A stretch of DNA of 64,000 nucleotides, from NCBI RefSeq assembly GCF_030142075.1, contig NZ_CP126241.1, forward strand, positions 2,418,001 through 2,482,000, in the 5' to 3' direction. The stretch is from Arthrobacter sp. zg-Y20 (GTDB lineage Bacteria > Actinomycetota > Actinomycetes > Actinomycetales > Micrococcaceae). Below, one piece after another: positions 30,970-35,780 of this stretch (its first letter is position 1; each line of letters starts with the position of its first letter). The translations under genes and the position numbers were made by a program. Under the pieces are notes generated by a model. That model ran no database searches. It saw only the letters and a list, made by a program, of their open reading frames with translations, and had not been told where the DNA came from.

Positions 30970-31162
30970 CCGGGTGCGGCACTGGCCTCGTTGTGTATGA
31001 CAGGCCTTACCCAGCGAACGCCCAGCGCCGGGGGTAATGATGCGGTGTAATAAAGGGGAAAGTGGATGCGATGTAATGAAGGGGAAGGCGTTTGCCGGCT
31101 CCTTGCAGCCGTGGCCTGGCAGTCTTCCCCTAATCCCCGGAACCCCAATAACGAGGAGAACC

Positions 31163-31645
31163 GTGAACCGAGCGAGCAAGTCCCTGTTGTGTGCCGCCGC
31201 CAGCCTGTCCCTGCTCTCTGCCGCCGGATGCGCAGCGGGCGAAGACAGTGAAAGCGCGGACGCTGCCGAAGCACCGGCCAGCCCGTCCGCCAGCCAGTCC
31301 GCTGCCCCGTCCCCCGCCGCCACGGCGGATGCGTCCGCTTCCGGCGCTTACGCGGACGGCGAGTATTCCGGCACCGGAAGCTACATCCCGCCGTCGGGCA
31401 CCTCCGAAGACGTGGATGTGACGCTGCGGCTGGAAAACAATGTGGTGACCGAACTGGAAGTGAAGACTTCACAGAAGAATCCCACCTCCAAGCAGTACCA
31501 GCGCGAATTCACCTCCAACGTGCAGGAGCAGGTGGTGGGCAAGAACATTGATGAGCTCGATGTGCACAAGGTGGCCGGATCCTCGCTGACCAGTGAAGGC
31601 TTCAACCGCGCACTGGATGCGATCCGCTCCGTGGCGGGATCCTAG
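31163..31645 (+). CDS. FMN-binding-domain lipoprotein
   Basis: 160 residues from GTG 31163 (GAGGAGAA ribosome site). Signal peptide with lipobox LSAAGC; Cys23 would be lipidated, anchoring the protein outside the membrane. A Ser/Ala/Pro-rich linker (about 24-62) leads to a small domain (YADGEYSGTGSYIPPSGTSEDVDVTLRLENNVVTELEV) like the FMN_bind domain of NqrC/RnfG. AGSSLTS (138-144) matches the NqrC-type flavin-attachment pattern GAT-x-TS, with Ser141 in place of Thr. ApbE transfers FMN to such residues, and apbE is the next gene. Likely an extracytoplasmic one-flavin electron carrier; the attachment at Ser141 is inferred from alignment by eye. Confidence 0.75.
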   Translation: MNRASKSLLCAAASLSLLSAAGCAAGEDSESADAAEAPASPSASQSAAPSPAATADASASGAYADGEYSGTGSYIPPSGTSEDVDVTLRLENNVVTELEVKTSQKNPTSKQYQREFTSNVQEQVVGKNIDELDVHKVAGSSLTSEGFNRALDAIRSVAGS

Positions 31646-31654
31646 GTACCGCCG

Positions 31655-32566
31655 ATGCATACCGTGGGCTTCCAGGCGATCGGCACGGCGTGGACGCTGT
31701 CCACGCCGGATCCCCTGGAAGCCTCCGTGCAGGCTGCCGTTGCGGAGCTGGTCCAGGACTATGACCGGACCTGGTCCCGCTTCCGCAGCGACTCCACGGT
31801 GGCGCGGATGGCCGACGGTGCCGGCAGTTTTGAGCTGCCCGGGTCCGCTGCCGGGCTGCTGCGTCTTTTCGACGCCCTGAACCGGCTCACCGACGGCGCA
31901 GTGAATCCCCTCGTCGGGCGTTCCCTGGAGGTTTTGGGGTACGACGCCGCGTACAGCTTCCGTGTCTGGGGACCGTCCCTGCCGGCAGCGGCGTGGGCGG
32001 AAACCGTGTCCTGGACCGAGGCTCAGGGCGGTTCCGGGGCGGGCGGTTCCGGGGCGGGCGGTTCCGGGGCGGGCGTGACGGTGCGCACTTCCGCTCCGGT
32101 GACATTCGATATTGGTGCCGCCGGAAAGGGGCAGCTGGTGGACCTGGTCTGCGGCGTGCTGGAGTCCGCCGGCGTCCGCCGTTATGTGGTGGACGCAGGC
32201 TCGGACCTTCGCCACGCCGGTGCCGAGCCGCTCCGGGTGGCCCTGGAACATCCGTATGACCCGGCGCGGGCCATCGGCGTGCTGACCCTGGCCGACCGGG
32301 CGCTGTGCGCATCCGCAGTCAACCGCCGCCGATGGGGCGAAGGCCTGCACCATGTCCTGGACGCGCGGACCGGCGCTCCCGTGGACGCAGTGGCAGCCAC
32401 CTGGGCCGTAGCCGCAGACGCCATGACCGCCGACGGGCTGGCCACTGCCCTGTTTTTCGCCGATCCGCAGACCCTCGCGGCCGTGTTCGACTTTGACTAT
32501 GTCCGGATGTTTACCGACGGCCGGGCCGACTATTCCCCTGCAATGGCTGGAGTCCTGTTCCCATGA
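31655..32566 (+). CDS. apbE: FAD:protein FMN transferase (ApbE family)
   Basis: 303 residues. Motifs of ApbE are present: AIGTAWTL at the start, SRFRSDSTVARM (41-52), FDIGAAGKGQLVD (151-163), HHVLDARTGAPV (232-243) and ADAMTADGLATALFF (254-268), with Asp/Thr of the Mg2+ site. The enzyme covalently attaches FMN to Thr/Ser of carrier proteins. There is no signal peptide or lipobox, although most ApbE proteins act outside the membrane. A GGSGA repeat (residues about 125-140) interrupts the domain between strands. It ends in an ATGA overlap with the next gene, so the three genes are coupled. Confidence 0.86.
   Translation: MHTVGFQAIGTAWTLSTPDPLEASVQAAVAELVQDYDRTWSRFRSDSTVARMADGAGSFELPGSAAGLLRLFDALNRLTDGAVNPLVGRSLEVLGYDAAYSFRVWGPSLPAAAWAETVSWTEAQGGSGAGGSGAGGSGAGVTVRTSAPVTFDIGAAGKGQLVDLVCGVLESAGVRRYVVDAGSDLRHAGAEPLRVALEHPYDPARAIGVLTLADRALCASAVNRRRWGEGLHHVLDARTGAPVDAVAATWAVAADAMTADGLATALFFADPQTLAAVFDFDYVRMFTDGRADYSPAMAGVLFP
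32026..32070. repeat. Three exact 15-bp repeats in apbE
   Basis: GGGCGGTTCCGGGGC occurs three times head to tail. In the apbE frame it adds three Gly/Ser/Ala-rich five-residue units, a flexible linker that can vary in length without frameshift. Confidence 0.93.
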
Positions 32567-34113
32567 GCGTCAACGCACCGGCTGCCCCGCGCACCCTGAA
32601 CACCTTTCTGGGCCGCTGGACCATGTACCGGCTCACCGTTTGGTTGCTGCTGGCCTGTGTTGCCTGGTCTTTTGTGCTCTCCTTTGCCGGGGTGCTCTTT
32701 TATACTCCGGCTGAGCTGGGGGCCACGCTGCTGACCGCCGTAGCGTCCACCCTGGTCACCAGCAGGGTGGCCGGGCTGCTGTTGCGCACCCGTCCGCTGA
32801 CGGATTCCTCGCTGATCACCGGACTGCTGCTGTACTTCCTGTTCTGGCCGGGCACCGGGGGCGCGGAGTTGGGCACAGTGGCCCTTGCCGGTGCTGCAGC
32901 GACTGCGTCCAAATACGTGCTGGCCGTCCGGCGCCGGCACATCTTCAACCCGGCAGCGGCCGGCGCGTTTGTGGTTGCCCTGACCGGATTGGGAGGTGCG
33001 GCCTGGTGGGTGGCCACCCCGTGGATGCTGGTAGCCGTGCTGCCTGCCTCCCTGCTGGTCCTGTACCGGAACCGTCTGCTGCCGATGGCCGGAGTGTTTG
33101 CGCTGACCGCCGTGGTGGTCCTTGTGTTCCGGTTTATGGCAAACGGAGAATCTGCCGCCGATGCCCTGGTCACGGTCGCCGGCTCTTATCCGCTGGTCTT
33201 CCTGGCCGGTTTTATGCTTACCGAACCGCTGACCCTGCCCCCGCTGCGCGCTCAGCGGCTGGCGGAGGGCGTCGTCGTCGGCGTCCTTTTTGCCGTGCCG
33301 CTGTCCTTGGGCCCCGTCGCCATGTCCCCCGAACTGGCCCTGCTGGTGGGCAACGCGCTCGCCTTTGTGCTGGGACAGCGCGGCGCCGTGCGGCTGCGCC
33401 TGCAGGCCACGCGGGAGCTCACCCCGACCGCCCGTGAAGTCGTGTTCGAACCGTCCCGTCCGGTCCGGTTCCGTGCCGGCCAATACCTGGAGCTCGCGGT
33501 CAAGCACTTCGAGCCCGATTCCCGCGGGTCGCGGCGGATCTTCAGCATCACCACGGCACCGGACGAACCAGGCACGGTGGCTGTGGGGCTGCGGGTGGCG
33601 GCAGAGGCCGGCAGCAGCTTCAAGACTGCGCTGATGAAAATGCGTCCCGGCGCAGAAGTGACGGCGACAGCCGTGGCCGGAGACTTCCTGCTGCCCCGGG
33701 ATCCGGCCAAGCCCGTACTGATGATTGCTTCCGGTATCGGCATTACGCCGTTTATCAGCCAGTTGCGCGCGGTACGCGGCGAAGGACATGGCGGAACGGC
33801 ACGGGCGCAGACGGCAAGGGACATTGTCCTGGTTTATGCCGCGTCCGATGCTGCCGAACTGGCCTACGCTGACGAGCTGCGGGAATTCGGGATCCGGGTG
33901 CTGGTGTGCACCCCGGCTGATCCCGAAATCCCGGAGTGGACATGGCTTGGTGCCGGCCTTCCGGACGCCGCAGTGCTGCGGCAGGAAGTTCCCGATATCG
34001 CCTCCCGGGCGGTGTACGTTTCGGGTTCGCCCCGGGCTGTGGCGGCCGCCCGCAAGGCGGTCCGCAGCGCGGGAGGGCGGCGAATCCGGACCGATCCGTT
34101 CCTGGGGTACTAG
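32563..34113 (+). CDS. NqrB/RnfD-like membrane domain fused to FAD/NAD(P) reductase domain
   Basis: 516 residues in two halves. Residues 20-270 hold about eight membrane helices, with RRRHIFNPAAAGAFVVAL (about 123-140) as in the NqrB/RnfD family and a FMLTEPLT segment (217-224) recalling the FMxTDP region of that family. Residues about 275-516 are a ferredoxin-NADP-reductase-like domain: FRAGQYLELAV and RRIFSITTAP bind FAD, and IASGIGITPF (388-397) binds the NAD(P) side. It would take electrons from cytoplasmic NAD(P)H, pass them through the membrane and hand them to the FMN lipoprotein. Overlaps apbE by four bases. Substrate and physiological acceptor are unknown. Confidence 0.78.
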   Translation: MSVNAPAAPRTLNTFLGRWTMYRLTVWLLLACVAWSFVLSFAGVLFYTPAELGATLLTAVASTLVTSRVAGLLLRTRPLTDSSLITGLLLYFLFWPGTGGAELGTVALAGAAATASKYVLAVRRRHIFNPAAAGAFVVALTGLGGAAWWVATPWMLVAVLPASLLVLYRNRLLPMAGVFALTAVVVLVFRFMANGESAADALVTVAGSYPLVFLAGFMLTEPLTLPPLRAQRLAEGVVVGVLFAVPLSLGPVAMSPELALLVGNALAFVLGQRGAVRLRLQATRELTPTAREVVFEPSRPVRFRAGQYLELAVKHFEPDSRGSRRIFSITTAPDEPGTVAVGLRVAAEAGSSFKTALMKMRPGAEVTATAVAGDFLLPRDPAKPVLMIASGIGITPFISQLRAVRGEGHGGTARAQTARDIVLVYAASDAAELAYADELREFGIRVLVCTPADPEIPEWTWLGAGLPDAAVLRQEVPDIASRAVYVSGSPRAVAAARKAVRSAGGRRIRTDPFLGY

Positions 34114-34145: not shown

Positions 34146-35780
34146 TTAAAAAGGTGGCGGTGTCACCAGGGTGGACGCCTGTCCCGGCTCGGGTCGGACA
34201 CGAGCCAGTTCCAGGAAGGGTTCGGTTCGGTAGACCCGTCCCGTGGGTGAGGTCCATTCCATCACTCCCGGTTCCGGTTGCCGGGCCTTCCAGAATCCCA
34301 GGGTTTTGAACCGGTGATGCCGCCGGCATAAATGGGCGAGGTTGCCATGGTCCGTAGGGCCTCCGTCCGCCCAGTCGGTGGTGTGGTCGATTTCCGTGAC
34401 CGCGGTGCTGACCCGGCAGCCGGGGAACCGGCAGGTTCCGTCCCTGGCACGTAGCCATCGGGCCAGTCCGGCGGGGACTTTCCGGCGCCTGCCCACGCCG
34501 AGGATTTCCCCGGTGTCCGGGTCCTGGACGAGTCCGGTCCAGCGGGTGGCGTGGCGGGACAGCCTGCGGGCTGCTTCGGCGCTGATCGGGCCGTAGCCAT
34601 GCAGCTCGGCCGGGTCTTCATTGGCTCCAAACAGTGTTTCGGCGTTGATCAGGACCATGATTTCCGCCCGGGGGAGGATGCCAAAAGACTCGGCGTCATA
34701 GTCATCAGAGTCGGCACCTCCAGGTGCACTGCCAGCCCCGCGTGATTCACGGCTCGGGCCAATGTCGGCGGCTTTCCCGCCGCCGCCCGCACGGTCAGAC
34801 CGCACTGGGGTGCGCTCTGGGGCAGCACCAGTACGCGGTGAACCGGGGCCACCCATAAGCAGCTGGGCCAGGATGTCGGCACGAAGTTGGTCCGCGGTCC
34901 GTGTATCCCCATCACTCTGCTCACCCCGGGCTGCAGTGCTCAGGGCTGTGTAGATCTGCTGGGCTTCGGCGGCACGCAGATGCGCGGACAGGCAGGACAT
35001 CCCGTCTTCTTCCCGGTGCAAATTCACCCGGCGCTTCTCGAACGCACTTTGATGCTTCAGCGGAATGGTCTGCGGGTACTTGGTCTCGCGCAGCCGGCGG
35101 GCTTTGGCGGCGAACTGGGCGCTGGTTCGTCCCTCTGCGGCTTTCAACAGGTTTGCTTCAAACTTAGGCAGCTCGGCGGCAGGAACAGTTTCGCACTGGT
35201 CCAGAAGTACCTGAGCATGCCTGTAACCGAGGCTCCCGTCCTGCAGCGCTTCCAGCGTGGCGGTGTGGGTGTCCGTGAGGAGGCCGGCTTCGAACATCAG
35301 CCGCTGGGCGGTGCCGTGCGGTATCTGCAGGAGGGCGGCACACTCCGCTGCCGCCAGTGTGAACGCCATCCCGGGTTCCACCCGGCCGGTCGCGCCGGCA
35401 TAATCCTCCCGGAAGAGGGTTTCCATCCGGTTCAACGCCCGGGCCTGCTGCGCCTGCGCCCACGCGATCAGGTGCGCGACCCGGACCAGGACTTCCCCGG
35501 TGGCTTGGTCGTCAAAGGATTCGAGGTTCTGCAGAGCCAGGGTTCCGCTGAAACCATCCGGAAAATCAGTGCCGGTTCCGCAGGAACGCCCACCCGCGCC
35601 GCCGTCGTCAGTGCCGGCGCCCGAGGCCGCTCGAAACACCGCTAGTGAGCACTTCTGACCGGGACCGTCCCCGGTATCAGCCCCGTCTTCAGCGGCCCGG
35701 TGTCCAGTTCCTGTTTGTTCAGTTTTCTGTCCGGTTACCGGCCGGGCATTCCCGATCTGGTCCATGCTTAAGGCTTTCAT
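34146..35780 (-). CDS. DUF222 / HNH endonuclease family protein
   Basis: 544 residues. Long N-terminal DUF222 (13E12 repeat) helical region (about 60-400) and a C-terminal HNH nuclease domain: DGTCRFPGCRVSTAVTEIDHTTDWADGGPTDHGNLAHLCRRHHRFK, with two Cys, the Asp-His pair, Asn and the closing HxxH. Such genes occur in many copies in actinobacterial genomes; their biological role is not settled. ATG 35780 is used; an ATG at 35765 is equally open. Convergent with the flavoprotein gene, 32 bases apart. The low-complexity polar N-terminus is poorly conserved in the family. Confidence 0.88.
   Translation of the reverse strand: MKALSMDQIGNARPVTGQKTEQTGTGHRAAEDGADTGDGPGQKCSLAVFRAASGAGTDDGGAGGRSCGTGTDFPDGFSGTLALQNLESFDDQATGEVLVRVAHLIAWAQAQQARALNRMETLFREDYAGATGRVEPGMAFTLAAAECAALLQIPHGTAQRLMFEAGLLTDTHTATLEALQDGSLGYRHAQVLLDQCETVPAAELPKFEANLLKAAEGRTSAQFAAKARRLRETKYPQTIPLKHQSAFEKRRVNLHREEDGMSCLSAHLRAAEAQQIYTALSTAARGEQSDGDTRTADQLRADILAQLLMGGPGSPRTGAAPERTPVRSDRAGGGGKAADIGPSRESRGAGSAPGGADSDDYDAESFGILPRAEIMVLINAETLFGANEDPAELHGYGPISAEAARRLSRHATRWTGLVQDPDTGEILGVGRRRKVPAGLARWLRARDGTCRFPGCRVSTAVTEIDHTTDWADGGPTDHGNLAHLCRRHHRFKTLGFWKARQPEPGVMEWTSPTGRVYRTEPFLELARVRPEPGQASTLVTPPPF

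Follow-up and report, generated by a model that had tools for sequence, protein, structure and literature searches.

The closest described counterpart of the locus considered here is the NQR/RNF-like class of flavin-dependent systems, which was defined by Meheust et al. in 2021, with 127 clusters counted, and was inferred to pass electrons one way, from reduced nicotinamide adenine dinucleotide (phosphate) (NAD(P)H) to the outside of the cell (PMC8238504). Its members combine an exported FMN_bind subunit, an ApbE protein, and a membrane protein with an NqrB/RnfD-like N-terminal half and a PF00175 C-terminal half. A member from Ktedonobacter has been modeled (PMC11334425), and Actinobacteria are a main home of the class (PMC8238504; PMC11334425). 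Here, we describe a three-gene cassette of this composition from Arthrobacter sp. zg-Y20 (genome of 3.53 Mb, one contig), located in a stretch of 64,000 nucleotides (nt) that was analyzed as a whole and is referred to as the window. Its genes encode, in order, a lipoprotein, an ApbE-family transferase, and a fusion protein that joins a membrane half to a reductase half. At the level of sequence, membership of this cassette in the NQR/RNF-like class is well confirmed, and we consider it probable that the three proteins make up a minimal NAD(P)H oxidoreductase of this kind that spans the membrane, with flavin mononucleotide (FMN) attached to the lipoprotein before export. An earlier note on this DNA had called the system little-described, which is half right, given that the design is that of a named class (PMC8238504, PMC11334425). 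The window's cassette departs from the class description in that its lipoprotein and fusion do not reach the respective Pfam thresholds of FMN_bind and PF03116, GSSL replaces SGA[ST] in its flavinylation motif, and its ApbE is signal-less. A flavinylated surface protein that is fed electrons across the membrane is also a feature of the extracellular electron transfer system of Listeria (PplA, FmnB), but the membrane partners in that system differ from those in the window.

The three genes are tightly coupled, as the earlier note had described. A Shine-Dalgarno-like GAGGAG lies just 5' of the GTG start codon of the lipoprotein gene at 31163, and the open reading frame (ORF) of the fusion (32563-34113; 516 amino acids [aa]) begins within an ATGA that is common to its start and to the stop of apbE. 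Fusion relatives spanning the membrane half were present in 67 of the 245 genomes sampled from the window's family (the matches in two of these, G114 and G144, being incomplete) and in all 17 sampled genomes of its genus. In the class sample, fusion relatives were found in 28 of 394 genomes at E ≤ 1e-30, and in the phylum sample in 8 of 396, one of which contained an in-frame stop; the named relatives comprise five Arthrobacter and one Actinomyces. Ninety-nine loci were examined, leaving 97 once the duplicates L108 (of L003) and L111 (of L005) had been removed. The lipoprotein gene, apbE, and the fusion gene occur on one strand and in one order in 94 of these 97 distinct loci, no two of which have identical proteins, and in 67 of the 94, the last two genes share 4 nt. 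The same order and strand in so many distinct loci indicate that the cassette is not a product of chance. Alignments were made from subsets hand-picked for spread, comprising 43 of the 97 fusions, 40 of the 94 lipoproteins, and 27 of the 95 ApbEs (in alignment A2, the N-terminus of row L002 is short through the choice of start).

Several loci show variations on this arrangement. In L106 and L153, two of the 94, the lipoprotein gene lies ~2.6 kb upstream of apbE rather than adjoining it. By phmmer, neither a lipoprotein nor an apbE was detected at L087 and L138, and no lipoprotein at L137; with a profile, a weak ApbE was later recognized next to the fusion at L137 and L138. The fusion at L087 (genome G028) is full-length, with no lipoprotein or apbE gene found in the 9-kb stretch examined. 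At L045/L107 (genome G541), the fusion relative contains an in-frame stop, and the lipoprotein and apbE match strongly. L043, L044, L137, and L138 (G602, G336), from phylum members with low guanine-cytosine content, have a fusion, but ApbE is matched just weakly at these four loci, and the lipoprotein profile found nothing there. Several related genomes additionally carry stand-alone reductase-like ORFs of ~230-275 aa.

The lipobox LSAAGC (Cys23) and the sequence AGSSLTS, which the earlier note had picked out as an NqrC-like flavin-attachment pattern, are both present in the lipoprotein, the latter beginning at residue 138 with Ser141 as its second Ser. A lipobox was recognized by pattern in 92 of the 94 cassette lipoproteins, the other two being cut off where the locus sequence ends, and together with the adjoining apbE it gives the locus the composition of a flavinylation cluster with a lipidation site, as described for the NQR/RNF-like class. 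Cys23, Ser140, Ser141, and Leu142 are invariant among the 40 aligned lipoproteins, and SSL(T/S) occurs in all 94, preceded by AG, SG, AS, or GG (two read GGSSLTS). FMN_bind was matched at E ≤ 0.01 in 30 of the 40. Moreover, a search of the PDB with the lipoprotein profile returned the FMN domain of 8p2a (E 0.034), a weak match that puts the second Ser of SSL at the flavin-bearing residue of SGAT, and in a comparison with RsxG, Ser141 likewise falls on the flavinylated position. From these comparisons, we infer that FMN would be joined to Ser141 of the lipoprotein.

Not all of the data favor this reading. The window lipoprotein scores 17.4 bits with the Pfam FMN_bind profile (18.5 in the genome search) against a cut-off of 22, so that this protein alone does not support the FMN_bind assignment, to which its relatives point. 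The usual flavinylation motif is Dxx[ST]GA[ST] (PMC12052999), from which the window motif departs in having His135, Ala138, and Ser140 for D, S/T, and A. In the PDB search, two LpqN chains outranked 8p2a, matching the signal and linker only, and the RsxG comparison was not significant (P 0.24). The departure from the usual motif and the sub-threshold score would both be expected if the lipoprotein were not flavinylated, with its GSS motif a degenerate relic and ApbE serving some other protein, but such a relic is difficult to reconcile with the invariance of Ser140 and Ser141, the retention of SSL in every lipoprotein, and the conserved gene order. The genome search, moreover, found only one FMN_bind-like place at E ≤ 1, this lipoprotein (other families of ApbE substrate were not searched), and we consider the absence of flavinylation very unlikely.

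The product of the second gene, which the earlier note had taken for an FMN transferase, matches Pfam ApbE far above the cut-off (137.9 bits compared to 25.6); the family is also matched by all 27 aligned cassette ApbEs. The window protein is the only ApbE found in the genome search. Ser220, His233, and Asp260 are invariant in the 27 and align with the Ser, His, and Asp of Escherichia coli ApbE, the conserved triad of the family (PMC12052999); both the domain and the conserved residues of an ApbE transferase are therefore present. In contrast, the signal peptide or lipid anchor that would mark an extracytosolic ApbE is absent. An in-frame TAG at 31643-31645, which is the stop codon of the lipoprotein gene, lies four codons before the ApbE ATG, and the protein starts directly at the domain, making a longer N-terminus impossible. 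This lack of room is general: from the lipoprotein stop to the first conserved ApbE residues there are ≤34 codons in 90 of 93 loci, usually 6-13, and no signal peptide was seen in any of the 93 cassette ApbEs analyzed (L083, with a misplaced ApbE start, and L137, with a partial ApbE and no lipoprotein, were excluded from the counts of room and hydropathy).

To express signals numerically, we used the mean hydropathy of the most hydrophobic 12 residues within the first 50, with a line drawn at 1.9. The values for the window were 1.03 for ApbE and 2.04 for the lipoprotein, compared to 2.68 for E. coli ApbE, which has a lipoprotein signal. The 93 cassette ApbEs reached a maximum of 1.64 (median 0.67), and 92 lipoproteins ranged from 1.52 to 2.70 (median 2.07), excluding from the signal counts L106 and L153, in which the lipoprotein is cut off where the locus sequence ends. 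These ranges overlap, with 6 of the 93 ApbEs reaching the lowest lipoprotein value, 2 of the 92 lipoproteins not exceeding the ApbE maximum, and 26 of the 92 lipoproteins under the 1.9 line. The measure is crude; for the cassette, the lack of room carries more weight than hydropathy. By the same measure and reading by eye, ApbEs across the class also look signal-less: among 50 ApbEs (L160-L210; 30 best-match loci and 20 hand-picked places, from matches in 140 of 246 genomes) no signal was read, 49 having values of ≤1.35 and one, L205, a borderline 1.89 from a hydrophobic stretch that precedes its likely start codon. No statement on signal-less ApbE in Actinobacteria was found in the open-licence literature searched, supplements excluded, nor one on the location of ApbE for the NQR/RNF-like class in the accessible portions of PMC8238504 or PMC11334425.

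ApbE thus appears to act in the cytosol while its substrate is exported, which poses a puzzle. With ApbE lacking an export signal, the FMN bond would most simply be made in the cytosol, so that the lipoprotein would be flavinylated first and exported afterwards. In the textbook model, ApbE would instead leave the cytosol, here by an unrecognized route, and flavinylate the lipoprotein outside. Published work gives this model substance, in that ApbE is described as typically membrane-anchored and periplasmic, with secretion apparently the rule, and in that a knock-out was not rescued by a truncated ApbE expressed in the cytosol (PMC12052999). Predicted secretion signals have been called consistent with extracellular flavin transferases (PMC10339131), and Listeria FmnB flavinylates outside the cytosol (PMC9973259). 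The review that gives the general picture also names cytosolic exceptions, and signal-less ApbEs are on record, for example in Klebsiella (PMC12052999). Given these precedents, the absence of a signal-like segment, the few codons available for one in nearly every locus, and the class-wide sample with its single borderline case, flavinylation outside the cell appears rather unlikely for this cassette.

Turning to the fusion, its reductase half has the C-terminal PF00175 domain of the class (27.8 bits, cut-off 22), in agreement with the earlier note, and matches flavin reductase, flavohemoprotein, ferredoxin-NADP reductase, and NqrF chains; PF00175 was also matched at E ≤ 0.01 in 34 of the 43 aligned fusions. 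The membrane half is homologous to RnfD. A profile of the 43 N-terminal halves gave one PDB match at E ≤ 1, RnfD 8ahx_D (E 1.2e-4), and a comparison of these halves with E. coli RsxD yielded P 2.4e-4 over fusion residues 160-265, compared to P 0.65 for the control, RsxE. Additionally, PF03116 was matched at E ≤ 0.01 in 10 of the 43. The hydropathy of the alignment was read as ~10 transmembrane (TM) helices, and a low-confidence structural model has eleven. The RnfD match consists of two blocks, of 7.2 (weak) and 22.7 bits, between which RnfD residues 144-219 are skipped, facing only ~6 profile positions. We take this stretch of RnfD to be the one that carries the covalent-FMN Thr. A covalent FMN site has been reported absent from the membrane half of the class (PMC11334425). 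The earlier note had overlooked this missing counterpart of RnfD 144-219, as well as the missing signal peptide of ApbE.

Taken by itself, the window protein offers less support for this assignment. Its membrane half had no Pfam match by hmmscan at E ≤ 1, and in the genome search at E ≤ 10, it was the sole PF03116-like place, scoring 16 bits where 27.7 is the cut-off. The hhalign probability for RsxD was just 44%, and the AlphaFold model of the fusion, built from 7 sequences, was poor (mean predicted local distance difference test [pLDDT] 56.6, predicted template modeling score [pTM] 0.43). The NqrB/RnfD assignment of the earlier note fails, for this protein alone, the Pfam test that the note had set, and it is through the relatives, by PF03116, RnfD, and RsxD, that the N-terminal half characteristic of the class is reached. 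With its RnfD/NqrB-like half, an FMN_bind-like domain as in RnfG and NqrC, and an NqrF-like reductase half, the cassette resembles Rnf and Na+-Nqr, but differs from them in that no ferredoxin domain was found in the reductase half of the fusion, RnfD 144-219 is left uncovered, and one-way flow is predicted. As for a complete Rnf or Nqr complex, no second PF03116-like place was found in the genome (other subunits were not searched). The features of the cassette are listed in the table.

Table. Features of the flavin cassette, with positions counted from the first nucleotide of the window
Feature	Position	Strand	Remarks
Ribosome-binding site (RBS) region AACGAGGAGAACC	31150..31162	+	directly 5' of GTG 31163
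Lipoprotein with FMN_bind-like domain, 160 aa	31163..31645 (GTG to TAG)	+	lipobox Cys23; predicted FMN acceptor Ser141
ApbE-family FAD:protein FMN transferase, 303 aa	31655..32566	+	no signal peptide; Pfam ApbE 6e-40
Fusion, N-terminal half, NqrB/RnfD-like, ~10 TM helices, boundary approximate	32563..33378	+	profile match to RnfD 8ahx_D
Fusion, C-terminal half, cytosolic flavin adenine dinucleotide (FAD)/NAD(P)-binding reductase	33379..34113	+	PF00175

The earlier note had proposed an electron bridge that links NAD(P)H in the cytosol with an extracellular flavin; both the anatomy that it described and this proposal hold up, in agreement with the published model. In such a route, FAD in the cytosolic half of the fusion would accept the electrons of NAD(P)H and hand them to a flavin that the NqrB/RnfD-like half, with its ~10 helices, would bind non-covalently. 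This flavin would in turn reduce FMN bound by a phosphoester to Ser141 of the membrane-anchored lipoprotein, and the FMN would pass the electrons to an acceptor outside the cell. ApbE would build the FMN-Ser bond from FAD, most simply in the cytosol and ahead of lipoprotein export. In principle, the reductase domains of such proteins can also run backwards, and an outside donor might then reduce NAD(P)+ through the bridge, but no donor gene was recognized among the recurrent neighbors scanned. As outward flow is also the published inference (PMC8238504), we regard reverse flow as extremely improbable.

The neighbors in question were obtained by clustering the flanking ORFs, and a Pfam scan was made of ten ORFs that represent recurrent groups. 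Eight of them matched unrelated families (helicase, M4 peptidase, WYL regulator, MFS, ABC, AraC-type regulator, FtsX, and histidine kinase) and two had no Pfam match; an acceptor was sought among these ten, and none was recognized. A divergent upstream ORF, argS-like by eye in the window, recurs in 61 loci. Downstream of the cassette in the window, positions 34146-35780 on the minus strand hold a 544-aa ORF whose product, judged only by eye, resembles HNH-type proteins (13E12-like). Within apbE, at 32026-32075, there is a perfect 15-bp tandem repeat of 3.3 copies; it adds a repeat of GSGAG type to a loop that is variable, and the other 26 aligned ApbEs lack it.

It is also possible to view the system as serving extracellular iron reduction for assimilation, rather than general electron disposal. 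VIT1 occurs in 6 of the 127 published clusters (PMC8238504), and 5 of 92 lipoprotein genes are preceded by DtxR-like sites with ≤5 mismatches, compared to 0.38 expected from whole loci, a weak and composition-prone excess to which close relatives contribute two. In the cassette genomes, however, VIT1 is nearly ubiquitous (79 of the 80 searched, of 91) and, among the matches listed, never beside the cassette, the closest being ~11 kb away in G114; no iron-uptake family appeared among the ten neighbor representatives, and the window itself has no DtxR-like site within 5 mismatches upstream. We judge a dedicated role in iron assimilation to be unlikely. Sites for DtxR, Rex, Zur, Fur, LexA, and NrdR were tried upstream, using consensus sequences and following up DtxR only; these motifs were uninformative and were not used.

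If FMN is attached before export, the route by which the lipoprotein crosses the membrane comes into focus. Twin-arginine translocation (Tat) as an easy answer for the window lipoprotein was rejected, as the Arg-Arg that an in-frame reading would give upstream corresponds to the RBS (AGGAGA) 5' of GTG 31163, and no upstream lipoprotein start is conserved, by eye. Among 92 lipoprotein n-regions, Arg-Arg occurs in 14, RK in 28, KK in 9, and KR in 3; the remaining 38 lack two neighboring basic residues, and by eye the window lipoprotein (NRASK) is one of them. The multi-FMN proteins of Streptomyces type (SaFMN3, PMC10339131) are likewise exported and encoded beside an ApbE without visible signal, but they carry the canonical SGATYTS in one to three copies per protein and have an Arg-Arg-preceded N-terminal anchor and no lipobox. 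In L213-L223, 11 loci whose Streptomyces-like label was inferred, the N-terminus could be read in 15 FMN-motif proteins, and all of these have Arg-Arg before the anchor, as do two of three in L224-L226, the N-terminus of the third being cut off; no FMN-motif protein was found in L227-L232. Arg-Arg directly before the anchor in the L213-L226 proteins could be a Tat signal, and ordinary anchors often have Arg-Arg too. These observations would fit a more general scheme, in which signal-less ApbEs of Actinomycetes attach FMN inside the cell and the products are then exported, through Tat in the case of the twin-arginine anchors of the Streptomyces type and, for these lipoproteins, by means of a relaxed Tat signal or through Sec with the flavin already attached. 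We put this scheme forward tentatively, as somewhat less probable than its converse.

Because two of its proteins fall below the FMN_bind and PF03116 cut-offs, the window's cassette would probably be missed in a Pfam census. That so few of its aligned relatives reach PF03116, even at E ≤ 0.01, suggests that members escape a definition resting on Pfam, like that used for the 127 published clusters, although that number and the counts given here come from different genome sets and are not directly comparable. For Arthrobacter and its family, the cassette would give the electrons of cytosolic NAD(P)H a compact path to the cell surface, recurring in 67 of the 245 family genomes. The type of system is ordinary, and its interest lies in pointing to the question of where the flavin gets attached. 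If ApbE is truly cytosolic, how a protein bearing a covalent flavin crosses the membrane becomes a directly testable question, and if the more general scheme is true, attachment of FMN before export would reverse the assumed order of events for flavinylated surface proteins.

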